Origin: Dyella subtropica | GTDB lineage: Bacteria; Pseudomonadota; Gammaproteobacteria; Xanthomonadales; Rhodanobacteraceae | DNA: 64,000 nucleotides | Direction: 5' to 3' | Assembly: GCF_026283965.1 (NCBI RefSeq) | Contig: NZ_JAPDPD010000007.1 | Span: 62,001-126,000 of the forward strand | Part shown: in pieces, positions 4,346 through 49,125 of the stretch | Layout: each line of letters starts with the position of its first letter | Numbering within the stretch: position 1 is the first letter of the stretch | Notes under the pieces: model-generated | What the model saw: the letters and a program-made list of their open reading frames with translations, nothing else | Told to the model about the DNA's origin: nothing | Databases searched by the model: none | Program-made: the position numbers and the translations under genes

Positions 4346-4679
4346 TCGGCGCTCTTGCGCGCCGTCAGTTTGATCTAGCGTCAAGCAAGCCTGGGGACGT
4401 AAGTCCCCGGGCTTTGCCTGTTGCAGGGTTTCGCATGAGGCTATGTGGCATGAAGCCGTGCGGCCTGCAACGACAAGGCGTCATCTTTAGGTTCGTGTTT
4501 TACGTGTCAGGAAGGCAGCACTGAAAGGCCAGCAGACCATCGCCGACCTTTGACTTATGTCTTTTTGACGTATCGACGGGCAGGGCAGCACACCCTGGTC
4601 GTCGACCGCAGACACAGCTTTCACAATTCAGCCGGTGTGTGCACCACCGGCGTCACTGCGAACCGAGGCGGTACCCACC
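4346..4679 (+). terminator. rplL-rpoB spacer with attenuator hairpin
   Basis: This gene-free stretch of 334 bp contains a strong hairpin: a 12-bp stem (4387-4398 with 4403-4414, one G-U pair) capped by GTAA. Only a short T run follows. In enterobacteria this spacer holds a partial terminator and an RNase III site that set the lower expression of rpoBC relative to rplJL, and the same role is inferred here. I see no gene and no clear promoter in the rest. Confidence 0.55.
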
Positions 4680-43786: not shown

Positions 43787-46700
43787 GTGAACATGGTCTG
43801 GCGCCAACGCATGCACCGTATCGCCCGTGCGATGGGCTGGGTTGCGGGCGTGTCCGTGATCGGCCTGGCCGTGCTGGCTGGCCTGATCCAGGTGTTGTTG
43901 CCGACGCTGGCGAACCATCCGCAATGGGTGGCGACTCAGCTCAGCCAGCAATTGCATCGGCCGGTGTCGTTCGCCTCGATGGAAGGGCGCTGGGAGGCGT
44001 CGGGTCCGCTGTTTGTCATGCGCGACGTCACCATCGGCGCGGGCGACGGCGGCAGCCCACTGCACATCCCTGAGACGCAGCTCAAGTTGGACCTGGGTGG
44101 CTGGCTGCTGCCTTCGCGCCACTTGCTCAACCTGCATGTGCGCGGCTTGCAACTGGATCTCGGTCGCGATGTCGACGGTGCCTGGCATATCAATGGCATC
44201 GGTATGGCCGGTGGCACCGATCGGCAAAGCGCTTCGTTCGGCGGTTTGTCGGTGGAGTTGTGGCTGAGCGACTTGCACCTGGATATCGCCGACGCGCGCG
44301 TCAACAAGCACTACGAGCTGATCGCAAAACAGCTGCGTGTGAGCCGGCAGGGTGGGCGTGTGCGTGTGGGGGCGATTCTGCATCGCTTTGGCGCCGCCGG
44401 TGAGCTGCGTGGCGCAGGCAGTTTTCGTGAGGACGGGGCCGATGGGCGCCTGTGGCTGTCCGGCACGGATATCGATCTGCATGCCTTGTCCGCCGATATC
44501 GATATGGGCGGCTATACAGCCGAAAGCGGTCACGGCAGCTTCGCCAGTTGGTTGGACTGGCGCGATGCGAAGGTGGTGCGCAATCTGACCCGTTTCGACC
44601 TGAGCGACGTGGTGCTGGCCAGTCCGGAAGGGGGCAAAGCGTATGTGCCATCGCTGCACGCCCTCGCCGAGCTGCGCATGGGCAACGACGGCTCCCAGTT
44701 GCGTTGGGTCGACGATGACGGCAGCGCTCTCGCTGCCGAGTTGCACCAGATGGATAGCGACCAGGCGCACGTCGACGTGGCCGCACGCGATCTACAACTC
44801 GGCCCGCTGTTGCCCTGGCTGGCGCTCAAGCCGCAGCTTTCGCCAGGGCTCGCGCAATGGGTAGGTGCTGGCAAGCCGCGCGGCAAACTAAGCCATGCGT
44901 CCCTGCGCTGGACACGGGCGCAGGGCTTGGCCTTCGTGGATGTCGGCTTCAGCGGGCTCGGTATCGATGCCGCCGGCAAACTGCCGGGTATCGACCATCT
45001 CAACGGCGAACTGCGCGGCGACCAGGAAGCGCTCGCGTTGGAGCTGCCTGCCCAGGCCACGGTGCTGAACTTTCCGCACACGTTCCGCAAGCCGCTCGTG
45101 ATGTCCAAGCTGTCCAGCCAGATCGCGTTCTGGCACGCGGATGGCGACTGGCATATCGGCATCGATGCGTTGGACTTCGAAGGCGCCGGCTACGGCGGCC
45201 AGGCGCGCGGCGACATCGCGCTGCACGATGGCGGTGGGCGTCCCTTCCTCGACTTGTACGTGGCGCTGAGCCATGCGGACATGGATGCAGCCAAGCTGTT
45301 CTGGCCCATCGATTCCATGTCGCCGTCGGCCGTCGACTGGCTGGATCGCGCGTTGGTCGCGGGCAAGATCGATGACGCTGCGGTGGTGGTGCGCGGCGAC
45401 CTGGCGGACTGGCCATTCCTGCACAACGAAGGTCGCTTCGAAGCGCGTGCGGCGATCAGCAACCTCACCCTGGATTACGGCAAGAACTGGCCGCGCGCCG
45501 AAGGCGTCAATGCCATCGCCAACTTCGTCAACAACGGCATGCTGGTGGAGACGAGCGCGGGACAGTCGCTGGGCGTCAAGGTCGAAAGCGCGGTCGCGCT
45601 GATTCCCGATTTCGCCAACACCACGCTCGATCTGAATGTGAAAGGTTCCGGCAACGGTGCCAACCTGATGGACTTCGTGCGCAGGAGTCCGATCGGCAGC
45701 CATCAGGCCGATGCGCTGGCCAAGATGAGCCTGGGCGGTACCGGCAATTTCGATTTCCACTTGGTGCTGCCGATGAAGGACGCCAAGAACTTCACGCTGG
45801 CAGGCAATGCCCAGCTCAAGGACGCCGACCTCAACGCGCCGGATTGGAACCTCAAGCTGGACAAGATCAGCGGTCCGGCCACCTTCGATGCGCACGGCTT
45901 CCATGCCGGTCCTCTCGATACCGGATTCCGCGGACAGCCGTCCAAGCTCGACATCGCCATTGCCGCCGCCACGGGGCGTCCCGATACGGCTTTTTCGGCC
46001 AGGCTCAATGGCCGCTATGGCATGGCCGAGCTGGTGCAGGGCTTTTCGTCGCTGGACTGGCTGAAAGAAGTCGCGAGCGGCCGTAGCGATTTCACGGTCG
46101 GCTTCGACATCGTGCATCCCGATACCGTGGCGAACGCGGCGCAGGTATTGACCCTCGATTCGACGCTTGCGGGCATGGCGTTGGACGTCCCCACGCCGTT
46201 GAAGAAATCGGCGGAGACCAGCCTGCCGTTGCACCTGACCATGAACTTGCCGGTGGCTGGCAGTGATCTGCAGATATCGCTGGGGCAGGTGGTGCGGCAG
46301 CGCTTTCGCCTTTCCGATGGCGACAAGCAGCCGCTCGGCGCCACCTTCGCCTTTGGCACGCGCATGCCCGATACGGTGCCGGATAAAGGCATTCGCGTGC
46401 GCGGCCACGCGTCAAAGCTCGATGTGACTGGCTGGGTGCAGCGCACCGTGGCAGGTAGCAGCATGGAGGGGCCGGGGCTGGAGAGCATCGATGTCACCGC
46501 CGACCAGGCCGATGTCTTCGGCCACACCTTTCCTTCGATGCACATCCAGGCCACGCCGAAGGCGGATGCGTTGAATGTCGATGTGGACAGCACCGAGATC
46601 GCCGGGCGCTTCACCGTGCCCTCGACCGACTTGAGCAAGCGCGGCGTTACGGCGCGCCTGCAACGGCTGTATTGGCCCAAGAGCAATACGCCCGACACCA

Positions 46701-47653
46701 AGGCCGGCGCGAACGTGCCGGTAGAGAATCCAGCCGGCAACCCGGCAAATACGGGCGTCACACCATCGGCGCTGCCACCGTTTCATCTATGGGTCGGCGA
46801 TCTACGTTTCGGCGAGTCGAAGCTGGGCGAGGCACGATTGGAAACCTGGCCGACCGATCGCGGCATGCACTTCGATCAATTGCGTGCCTTGTCGCGTAAC
46901 GTGCAGATCAACGCCACCGGCGATTGGGATGGCACCGCCACCAACAGCCATACGCACCTGCGTATCGACTTTGCCGCGGAAAACCTCGGCGACATGCTGG
47001 GCGCCTTCGGCTTCGCGGGATTGTTCAATGGCGGCAAGACACGCTCCCTGCTCGATGCGACCTGGCCCGGTGCGCCTTCGGCGATGGACCTGGCAAACAT
47101 GGATGGCAAGCTGAGCATTCATGTCACCGAGGGCAGCATTCCGGAAGTAGAGCCGAGTGTGGGGCGACTGTTCGGATTGATTTCGGTGATTGAGTTGCCG
47201 CGGCGGCTCAGTTTTGATTTCGGTGACGTCTTCGGCAAGGGCATGGCATTCGATGCGATTAGCGGCGACTTCCTGCTGGCCGGTGGCAACGCCACCTCCG
47301 ACAATCTGCAGATCCTCAGTCCCGCTGCCGAAATCAGCATCAAGGGGCGTACCGGCCTGCGCGTGAAGGACTACGACCAGCGAGTGATTGTTGTACCGCA
47401 CGTCGGCAACAGCTTGCCGGTGGTCGGCGCGGTCGTCGGCGGGCCGATTGGTGCCGCGGCCGGCTTCGTGGCGCAGGGGTTGCTCGGGCACGGACTGAAC
47501 CGTGCCGCCGTGATGCATTACCGCATCACCGGGCCGTGGGACAAACCGTTGATCGAGAAGACGGGAACCTTCGAAGTGCCGCCGGCGCTCGCAGTGCCCA
47601 TGCAGGCGCCACCAAGCAGTCCGGCACCCGCCGCCAGTGCCGGCGGGCGGTAA
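43787..47653 (+). CDS. yhdP: YhdP-family AsmA-like protein
   Basis: YhdP is a large envelope protein that, with TamB and YdbH, carries phospholipids to the outer membrane. The 1288-aa product has an N-terminal membrane anchor (about residues 14-36), then a long beta-rich periplasmic body (LEGRWE-type start FASMEGRWEASGPLF). The C-terminal AsmA-type domain contains GRLFGLISVIELPRRLSFDFGDVFGKG, followed by a Pro/Ala-rich tail. GTG 43787 is 7 nt after AGG; ATG 43793 is possible. The gene's stop codon lies at the edge of the inverted-repeat element that follows. Confidence 0.92.
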   Translation: MNMVWRQRMHRIARAMGWVAGVSVIGLAVLAGLIQVLLPTLANHPQWVATQLSQQLHRPVSFASMEGRWEASGPLFVMRDVTIGAGDGGSPLHIPETQLKLDLGGWLLPSRHLLNLHVRGLQLDLGRDVDGAWHINGIGMAGGTDRQSASFGGLSVELWLSDLHLDIADARVNKHYELIAKQLRVSRQGGRVRVGAILHRFGAAGELRGAGSFREDGADGRLWLSGTDIDLHALSADIDMGGYTAESGHGSFASWLDWRDAKVVRNLTRFDLSDVVLASPEGGKAYVPSLHALAELRMGNDGSQLRWVDDDGSALAAELHQMDSDQAHVDVAARDLQLGPLLPWLALKPQLSPGLAQWVGAGKPRGKLSHASLRWTRAQGLAFVDVGFSGLGIDAAGKLPGIDHLNGELRGDQEALALELPAQATVLNFPHTFRKPLVMSKLSSQIAFWHADGDWHIGIDALDFEGAGYGGQARGDIALHDGGGRPFLDLYVALSHADMDAAKLFWPIDSMSPSAVDWLDRALVAGKIDDAAVVVRGDLADWPFLHNEGRFEARAAISNLTLDYGKNWPRAEGVNAIANFVNNGMLVETSAGQSLGVKVESAVALIPDFANTTLDLNVKGSGNGANLMDFVRRSPIGSHQADALAKMSLGGTGNFDFHLVLPMKDAKNFTLAGNAQLKDADLNAPDWNLKLDKISGPATFDAHGFHAGPLDTGFRGQPSKLDIAIAAATGRPDTAFSARLNGRYGMAELVQGFSSLDWLKEVASGRSDFTVGFDIVHPDTVANAAQVLTLDSTLAGMALDVPTPLKKSAETSLPLHLTMNLPVAGSDLQISLGQVVRQRFRLSDGDKQPLGATFAFGTRMPDTVPDKGIRVRGHASKLDVTGWVQRTVAGSSMEGPGLESIDVTADQADVFGHTFPSMHIQATPKADALNVDVDSTEIAGRFTVPSTDLSKRGVTARLQRLYWPKSNTPDTKAGANVPVENPAGNPANTGVTPSALPPFHLWVGDLRFGESKLGEARLETWPTDRGMHFDQLRALSRNVQINATGDWDGTATNSHTHLRIDFAAENLGDMLGAFGFAGLFNGGKTRSLLDATWPGAPSAMDLANMDGKLSIHVTEGSIPEVEPSVGRLFGLISVIELPRRLSFDFGDVFGKGMAFDAISGDFLLAGGNATSDNLQILSPAAEISIKGRTGLRVKDYDQRVIVVPHVGNSLPVVGAVVGGPIGAAAGFVAQGLLGHGLNRAAVMHYRITGPWDKPLIEKTGTFEVPPALAVPMQAPPSSPAPAASAGGR

Positions 47654-47920
47654 GAGCCTGTTCAATGTCTCTGCATAGCCCGCGTTGAACCGCTGAGGGC
47701 GCCAGGTGGTGGGGCGTGGCGCAGCGCCTGACTGGCTGTCAGGCCAAGCCGCGCGCCGCCGCATGGCGCCCTCAGCGGTTCAACCCTTCGGGCCGAGTCT
47801 GTTTGCCCACAGTACGGCGTCATCACTCGGTTGTGTACGGACGTACACGCCCTCGTTCTTCCTTGTCCTGCGCGCAAACAGATCCCGGCGCGGGCCATGC
47901 AGAGATATTGAACAGGCTCT
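47653..47920. repeat. Nested inverted-repeat element between convergent genes
   Basis: Outer 32-bp arms (47653-47684 and 47889-47920) match at 30 of 32 positions and begin AGAGCCTGTTCAAT. Inside, a perfect 21-bp inverted repeat (47684-47704 with 47764-47784) encloses GCCTGAC/GTCAGGC (47726-47732 with 47738-47744). A third hairpin GTGTACG/CGTACAC (47833-47839 with 47842-47848) sits in the right half. It has no coding capacity. It fits a MITE-like element or a composite bidirectional terminator. Confidence 0.75.
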
Positions 47921-47928
47921 ACGCGAGT

Positions 47929-49125
47929 TCACTCCGCCGGCTTGGTGCTGCCGCGGAATGGGAACAGCTGCTGCCGGACGAAACCGTCCGGCATGTAGTC
48001 GCCGACCACGCCGTATTTCTCCGGGAATTTCTTCGTCGACTTCACCGCAGTGCCGAACACGTAGTCGAGGAAGGCGTAGTGCGCGGCGTAGTTCTTGTCG
48101 ATCGCTTCGTCGTCGGAGGCGTGATGCCAGTGATGGAAGTTCGGCGTCACGATCAGGTACTTCAGCGGCCCCCACGGCAGGTGCACGTTGGCGTGGTTGA
48201 ACACGGCCTGGAAGCCGACCACGATGATGTACGCATTCATCGCCGCCTCGCTGAAGCCGAGGATATACAGCGGCGCCAGCACGCACACGCGCGTCACGAT
48301 CAGCTCCAGCATGTGCTGGCGCGAGCCGGCCAGCCAGTCCATGGTTTTTACGCTGTGATGCACGGCGTGGAAGCGCCACAGGAACGGCACTTCGTGATAC
48401 GCGCGGTGCGTCCAATACTGCGCCAGGTCGGCGACCAGAATGCACAGCAGCAGCTGCGGTACGAAGGCGATGTGCTGCACCGCCTGCTGGAAATCACTGC
48501 GCACCAACCAGCCGAACAGGTGGTGCAGCAGGAAATTCACCACCAGCAGCGCCAGGCCCACGATGAAGTGGTTCACCGCGAAATGCTTGAGGTCGGTCTG
48601 CCATTCCTTGCGGAACAGCGTCTGCCCCTTGTACAGCGGGAACAGCTTTTCGATCACCACGAAAATCAGCGTGGAGCCGAGCAGGTCGAGGATGAACCAG
48701 TCCAGGCCGACGTACGGTGTGTGCTCCGGAAAATTGCCTACCGGCACGCGCGAGCCGCCCAGCGCCGTCGCGGCGATCACCAGCGCGAACGCCACGATGT
48801 TGAGGTTGCGCATGCGGCCAAGGATCAAGTTGCCCAGCGACATGCCGCCTGAGACCAGCAAGGCCAGCAACAGCAGTTGGCGCAACACGTCGACCGAATA
48901 CTTGTGGCGCAGGTCGGGCGTGGTCAGGTACTGCGGAAAATGGAACGCCAGCACGCCGAGCAGGCTCAGAAAGCCCAGCGACAAGGCGAGCACGCCCGTG
49001 ACCTTGCCCAACCCCGGTTTCAGCTCGCCATCACGATGAAGAAGTTCGCGGGTTTCTTCGACCGGTGCCTTGAGGGTGCGGTCGATGACCTTGTGGGCCA
49101 GCTCGCGTTTGGAGAAGTCGCTCAT
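47929..49125 (-). CDS. Sterol desaturase/fatty acid hydroxylase family membrane protein
   Basis: This is a di-iron membrane oxygenase of unknown substrate. The 398-aa protein has several hydrophobic helices and the expected histidine clusters: HRAYH, HAVHHSV, HANVH and NFHHWHHASD. The N-terminal 50 residues are hydrophilic. It lies between yhdP and tldD, which are neighbours in enterobacteria, so it (with the inverted-repeat element) appears inserted into that pair. It is divergent from tldD. Confidence 0.9.
   Translation of the reverse strand: MSDFSKRELAHKVIDRTLKAPVEETRELLHRDGELKPGLGKVTGVLALSLGFLSLLGVLAFHFPQYLTTPDLRHKYSVDVLRQLLLLALLVSGGMSLGNLILGRMRNLNIVAFALVIAATALGGSRVPVGNFPEHTPYVGLDWFILDLLGSTLIFVVIEKLFPLYKGQTLFRKEWQTDLKHFAVNHFIVGLALLVVNFLLHHLFGWLVRSDFQQAVQHIAFVPQLLLCILVADLAQYWTHRAYHEVPFLWRFHAVHHSVKTMDWLAGSRQHMLELIVTRVCVLAPLYILGFSEAAMNAYIIVVGFQAVFNHANVHLPWGPLKYLIVTPNFHHWHHASDDEAIDKNYAAHYAFLDYVFGTAVKSTKKFPEKYGVVGDYMPDGFVRQQLFPFRGSTKPAE

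Follow-up and report, generated by a model that had tools for sequence, protein, structure and literature searches.

A structured palindrome beside yhdP in Dyella subtropica is one copy of a mobile element with IS1031-type ends

The window, a 64,000-nt stretch of Dyella subtropica DNA, contains a yhdP-like ORF and a convergent ORF of the sterol desaturase family, between which lies a long palindrome (Table 1). A first-pass annotation had described it as a gene-free nest of inverted repeats, with outer arms that carry two mismatches, a perfect 21-bp inner repeat and two further hairpins, and with a left arm that begins inside the yhdP stop codon. This description holds: the outer arms are 32 nt long and 94% complementary, with two mismatches; the perfect 21-bp base lies within an inner repeat whose full arms measure 37 nt (86%); further hairpin structure is present as a third pair of arms (47798-47815 / 47865-47882), with the short palindrome GTGTACGGACGTACAC within it; no gene is seen between 47653 and 47920 in the ORF list; and the yhdP ORF ends at 47653. 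The element proper is best taken as the segment GAGCC...GGCTC, to which the limits 47653-47920 add one A/T pair.

The stretch 47653-47920 is predicted to fold as a four-helix structure, with a minimum free energy (MFE) of -187.1 kcal/mol on the plus strand and -187.5 on the minus strand. Dinucleotide-shuffled sequences have means of -110.3 (sd 5.3) and -108.7 (sd 5.5), respectively, which correspond to z-scores of -14.46 and -14.41, and 0 of 200 shuffles was as stable on either strand. At the gathering threshold, the Rfam search of the window returned only a tRNA, located far from the element; a permissive search of the element returned only models that score well under threshold, four of microRNAs and one of an sRNA.

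Table 1. Features of the window copy and its neighbours.
Feature	Position	Strand	Basis
yhdP-like ORF; its TAA stop is the left TNA target	43787..47653	+	ORF list, homologues in relatives
Left target trinucleotide TAA, the yhdP stop codon	47651..47653	+	sequence; TNA pattern of the family
Element proper, GAGCC...GGCTC, 266 bp	47654..47919	.	sequence, family boundaries
Left terminal inverted repeat, IS1031-type, GAGCCTGTTCAATGTCT	47654..47670	+	comparison with IS end GAGCCTGTTCAAAGTCT
Right terminal inverted repeat, GAGCCTGTTCAATATCT on minus strand	47903..47919	-	sequence, comparison with IS end
Outer stem, left arm (outer half is the terminal repeat, inner half conserved)	47653..47684	.	covariation
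Outer stem, right arm	47889..47920	.	pairing with left arm; covariation
Hairpin 1, weak in the window copy; interpreted as hairpin 2 inverted (plus strand) and degenerate	47682..47786	+	R2 score
Mini hairpin CCC-TTC-GGG at the junction of the hairpins	47784..47792	.	sequence, fold, alignment
Hairpin 2, conserved core; folded strand is the minus strand	47790..47891	-	R2 102.5 bits; R1 E 7.6e-22
Hairpin 2, internal part: three tandem G.A/A.G pairs and GTGTAC-GTAC stem	47818..47865 (approximate limits)	-	pair counts
Right target trinucleotide TAC (TNA, one change)	47920..47922	+	sequence
Sterol desaturase family ORF, convergent, outside the element	47929..49125	-	ORF list, homologues

Copies of the element and the empty site

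The palindrome is one copy of a mobile element and not a terminator. In the host genome (46 contigs), at least 18 places agree with the element at 230 nt or more out of 268, in addition to partial ones, a count that is a lower bound because 40 of 131 candidates were scored. Several contigs end inside copies (the ends of C2, C24, C29 and C44 fall within them), so the true number is likely higher. Matches were found in 23 of 61 genomes, the host included, and the multi-copy nature that the first-pass annotation had proposed to check is thereby established. The exact core pattern occurs in 64 stretches of named genomes, mostly of Dyella and Rhodanobacter, but it extends to Frateuria defendens, an unclassified Rhodanobacteraceae and Luteimonas mephitis. 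After the removal of 15 element ends that had no matching arm and of 3 reverse duplicates, 88 distinct elements with both arms were collected, with lengths of 161-358 nt, mostly 267-268. Just 7 pairs with similar flanks are listed among these 88 elements; insertion positions therefore seem to turn over quickly, with the proviso that distant orthologues could be missed. Two Dyella genomes have an element at the same insertion site (L101 2878 / L117 6625) with oppositely oriented interiors, the result of either an inversion or an independent insertion.

The order yhdP - desaturase - tldD recurs in 11 of 15 relative loci (desaturase 72-94% identical), and in the remaining four the fetched flank lacks both yhdP and tldD. 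The element is missing from all 15, including 11/11 with the conserved order, the best other match being 31 nt long with an E-value of 0.97. The insertion site is thus vacant in relatives of the same gene order, and a single copy conserved at this locus in all relatives, the outcome named beforehand as favouring a composite terminator, is not what was observed. The same comparison contradicts the earlier suggestion that the element and the desaturase gene entered together: the desaturase is present where the element is absent and is therefore older than the insertion.

Terminal repeats, target and stop codons

The ends of the element (GAGCCTGTTCAA..., with TNA flanks) equal those of an 849-bp IS in a related genome, G021. 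This IS has the ends GAGCCTGTTCAAAGTCTC / AGACTTTGAACAGGTTC, both present in 9 of 11 loci, 7 of which are flanked by identical TNA trinucleotides, and two overlapping ORFs that match DUF4096 and DDE_Tnp_1; the NCBIfam IS5 transposase model gives 160.7 bits for ORF 2 and 92 for ORF 1 (cut-off 110). Judged by its sequence, it is an IS5-family, IS1031-type insertion sequence, and it supplies the autonomous relative with a transposase for which a search had been proposed. The terminal repeat GAGCCTGTTCAA..TCT is common to the element and the IS1031-type IS, and the arm of another copy (L002) equals the IS end over 18/18 bases. ISLrh of the IS1031 subgroup is reported to have 17-bp inverted repeats, two overlapping ORFs and 3-bp TNA repeats (PMC12016507). 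Features in common with this subgroup are 17-bp ends of the GARCCTGT...TCT type and the TNA repeat and, for the G021 IS, the size (~850 bp) and the two overlapping ORFs; the window element differs from it in having no transposase and a structured, unrelated interior.

A plain target duplication of 2-11 bp was rejected, as flank comparison gave nothing until the ends were read as TNA followed by GAGCC. T and A are in position in both flanks of 39 elements; in 24 of these the two middle bases agree, where 17.5 are expected (permutation p 0.009). Of the earlier hint at a TA duplication, the presence of a duplication near the ends stands, but its unit is TNA, three bases, and not TA itself. Family-wide, the evidence for TNA is moderate; in the window, TAA (47651-47653) and TAC (47920-47922) are best read as an imperfect TNA duplication with one mismatch.

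No PF13340 protein was found in the host genome, the G021 transposase protein has no match there at E 1e-15, and the IS5-model search gave one weak match only (3.2e-6), with no intact matching transposase seen. G021, the bearer of the IS, is itself without any copy of the element. In G007, which has many copies, a transposase remnant lies beside the same end; transposase fragments occur in G014, and in G027 a related end accompanies a transposase of 78% identity. The lack of an autonomous partner in the host genome itself is treated as loss of the partner and not as a defining failure. A PF13340 protein is present in just 6 of the 20 genomes tested, namely 19 that bear the element and G297, which is not among these 19. 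The end of the local element was not found at 10 IS5 (PF13340) loci of G334, G227 and G080, and the PF13340 loci of G011, G012, G016 and G022, considered as partner IS, did not show the element ends. Two host spans bounded by element-like ends, of 2.2 kb and 3.5 kb, which hold a dehydrogenase/regulator region and an adhesin gene, were likewise rejected as autonomous elements on reading their ORFs; the adhesin gene lies between two repeats of another family.

Several related small repeats were observed alongside. A second host family (91 to ~650 nt; L147 948-1548 plus a copy that ends at 4480, L148 3922-4077, L151 1359-1728, L164) shares the AGAGCCTGTTCAAA ends and has long palindromes in which CTTTCTCTTTGGGTC occurs, and two of its copies flank an adhesin-like gene. 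Tiny elements of 53-55 bp, flanked by CTNAG, are made of nothing but the outer stem (L149 1300-1355, L160 993, L165 1012). The pattern CAGGCTCTNAG matches the host genome 58 times and its reversed control twice; many of the 58 matches lie away from known copies.

At 27 of 166 element sides, the stop codon of a coding ORF is completed by the first bases of the element (one base in 19 cases, two in 8); elsewhere, 32 stops fall over 81 positions outside the junction taken together, and 1 at positions 3-30 inside. Coding ORFs were called by codon usage, with the window as the training set for the score, and L018 (near-identical to L017) and sides with less than 400 nt of flank were excluded from the 166. 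In the set with one redundant copy, the junction stops, 28 of 171, are 13 TAA, 5 TGA and 10 TAG. Because TAA and TGA are both forms of TNA when either strand is read, an insertion at one of these stops would copy it and spare the gene, a duplication that would explain the frequent position of the element exactly on stop codons. The counts fit target choice and survival alike, two causes that are not separable here. The same element end is involved in 20 of the 27 junction stops (a related count gives 19 vs 7, p 0.03), a bias that may be due to selection on orientation.

Conserved core, distant relatives and arms

The core reaches well beyond the host and its nearest relatives. Covariance model R1, of hairpin 2, has matches in 93 of 197 genomes of the family and in 22 of 369 genomes of the class (21 of these in 16 other families), and the broader model R2 in 71 of 398 genomes of the phylum, 42 of the 71 outside the class; the arms were left out of the models, and their E-values are rough. 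Closing arms are present at 18 of 23 distant loci, five of the 23 (L279, L281, L284, L289, L291) having been misplaced by the script in the arm search. With L288 (contig end), L294 (289 nt), L300 and L301 set aside from those 18, 12 of the 14 hand-bounded copies measure 266-269 nt, and the other two 229 and 286. In a further set of 19 loci, closing arms are present at 18, and at 11 of these they are of the (A)GGGYCTGTT kind; palindromic flank is included in several of the raw lengths of this set. Over 21 sequences from distant loci and the family, 73 of 83 pairs show double changes. An Rfam search of 11 distant loci gave no element match above threshold: a t44 RNA in L290 lies outside the element, and mir-4650 in L295 scores well under its threshold.

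The distant copies examined are bounded by other IS5-like ends, and most have a length close to 267 nt. The resident IS5 of G181 has the ends GGGCGTGTTAACACTAATGC, with YTA/TAR flanks in 5/5 loci, and its ends agree with those of the local element in 15 of the first 16 bases. In G009, the core occurs between GGGCGTGTCATCAATCC ends in twelve copies, 11 of which are flanked left and right by CTAG. The core is found with at least four other end types, and the interior of the element is not IS-derived in the way that is expected of a MITE. Partial blastn matches to a distant element (15-37% of the query) were seen on plasmids of Methylophaga frappieri, Azotobacter chroococcum (2 records) and Halomonas sp. 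PA16-9; the Methylophaga match falls in a stretch with no annotated gene, on a plasmid typed as conjugative. The core pattern has 0 matches in viral_contigs, and four IMG/VR contigs (L302-L305) carry the GGGCCTGTTAACA end, given also as CTAGGGCCTGTTAACACT.

Matches to R2 are frequently found side by side on opposite strands, with a few bases between them. An opposite-strand partner is present at 29 of 41 loci searched (22/31 and 7/10 new ones), a tally in which the two L331 hairpins form a second element next to the listed one and the L291 partner is partial, and for which the hairpins of L279, L281, L284, L288, L289, L291 and L294 were re-examined; twelve of these loci contributed hairpin 2, and not hairpin 1, to R2. 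These partners show hairpin 1 to be a second, inverted version of hairpin 2. In the window copy (L001), hairpin 1 scores 32.8 bits against R2 on the plus strand and 17.0 on the minus, the wrong strand; in nine other family copies the opposite-strand match is 19.6-41.6 bits, and the complement of hairpin 2 itself scores 15-30. For the lineage of the window copy, a degenerate inverted copy is thus suggestive only. This head-to-head design would expose the same structured 5' hairpin on a transcript of either strand.

The pairs of the structure covary, with double compensating changes in 60 of 99 predicted pairs among 33 aligned copies. In hairpin 2, read on the minus strand, three tandem G.A/A.G pairs are kept in 57-59 of the 60 standard-length copies. 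The arms diverge faster than the core: the mean distance is 0.028 for the core versus 0.215 for the outer arms and 0.281 for the hairpin-1 base. Nevertheless, variable outer-arm positions match in 96% of cases within a copy and in 56% between copies. An insert of ~45 nt with a variable self-complementary stem (CACGCGGGGAG...GAGGAGCGAGG) was also observed inside L088, L100, L128, L131 and L136.

What keeps the arms complementary can be considered in two ways. One is homogenisation at the DNA level, possibly through template switching during replication, which has been reported to copy one arm onto the other (PMC8794818, PMC8604942). The other, a serious contender that we hold somewhat less probable than its opposite, is that for the arms complementarity reflects selection for a folded strand. 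Mismatch counts bear on both, and they and their p-values are indicative only, the cells from related copies not being independent: G.T outnumbers A.C by 63 to 19 in hairpin 2 (minus strand), and the reverse holds in hairpin 1 (12 vs 58), which fits the inverted-copy origin and argues that strand-specific selection exists. At pair 25-264 of the outer stem, 43 of 60 copies have G.T and 5 have A.C, so that the outer stem including it gives 66 vs 26, also in favour of selection; without this pair there is no preference (23 vs 21, p 0.88), and such a balance over the greater part of the outer stem is what arm-to-arm copying of DNA predicts. Two-sided differences dominate the terminal-repeat part (8018 vs 1240 sequence-pair comparisons), and hairpin 1 of L117 has become a perfect palindrome, both of which count against selection. 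Copies at the same site speak for it, since L089/L140 have uncompensated arm differences beside compensated ones and L017/L018 one uncompensated change; such pairs are too few to settle the mode of arm change. Taken together, arms that differ between copies and match within a copy, mostly with no G.U preference, suggest homogenisation at the DNA level.

Nature of the element and its significance

Dispersed copies, an empty site, IS ends, a TNA target, stop-codon junctions, a conserved structure and distant relatives with other IS5-like ends are all computed results, and the reading that we favour, with a probability of about 0.85, is that of a non-autonomous, MITE-like element moved in trans by IS5-family transposases. 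The terminal repeats being of the IS1031 type, the corresponding transposase would act on them in trans and generate the 3-bp TNA duplication. The interior is a conserved module not derived from the IS, made of two facing hairpins (one of them degenerate here) around the CCC-TTC-GGG mini hairpin. Like a MITE, the window element has ends equal to those of an IS, a TNA target and no transposase, and it is short and multi-copy; it is filed as MITE-like only because no partner is seen in the same genome and the interior is not IS-derived. Prokaryotic MITEs, as described in a review, are likewise short, non-coding and multi-copy, with IS-type ends and a stable predicted stem-loop transcript, and they are typically AT-rich and mainly IS-derived (PMC10969869). 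The element differs from them in its G+C-rich conserved core, which is common to many families and occurs with different IS5-like ends at a near-constant length.

An inverted dimer of hairpins with a conserved secondary structure also recalls REP/REPIN elements, which are extragenic and numerous and are moved by a RAYT (Y1) transposase via hairpins in single-stranded DNA; the strand-specific G.A pairs would fit such a folded single strand. This origin is nonetheless very unlikely, since the ends equal those of an IS5 DDE transposon, with TNA duplication, no GTAG/CGTC tag was seen by eye in the consensus, and the hairpin units, with their tandem G.A pairs, are of ~100 nt, against 20-40 bp for REPs (PMC3733652). 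A shade less probable is a conserved feature of the interval between yhdP and the desaturase gene, either a composite bidirectional terminator or a host 3'-UTR element. The position between convergent genes and the very stable fold on both strands speak for it, and it is opposed by the vacant site in 11/11 relative loci of the same order, by dispersal at unrelated loci (the 7 similar-flank pairs listed among 88), and by the TNA target and IS ends. By eye, the T run expected of an intrinsic terminator is missing, GGCTC being followed by TACGCG; a side role of the element as a terminator is possible. The least probable is a structured non-coding RNA spread by reverse transcription, to which the four-helix, RNA-like architecture, the mini hairpin and the strong covariation would be suited. 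Its difficulties are the DNA-transposon ends, the target duplication and an outer stem that, one fixed pair apart, has G.T and A.C in near-equal numbers. The bcr1 repeats of the Bacillus cereus group are likewise mobile repeats with a conserved RNA-like structure; their hosts belong to a different phylum.

Returning to the MITE-like element, its core could be an old selfish or functional module of Pseudomonadota whose ends have been repeatedly re-matched to the IS5-family transposase of the host, with a length kept near 267 nt and the same hairpin offered from either strand; we advance this tentatively, at rather less than even odds. An odd palindrome is in any case linked to a widespread element family that has no Rfam match, and no description of its core hairpin was found in the open-licence literature searched. 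The family offers test cases for three questions: whether stop codons become a safe harbour through the TNA specificity, whether template switching or selection keeps the arms of natural palindromes complementary, and why a transposon core would keep its structure while its ends change. If the proposed history is true, the core would be a hyperparasite defined by its structure, and not the deletion product of one IS.
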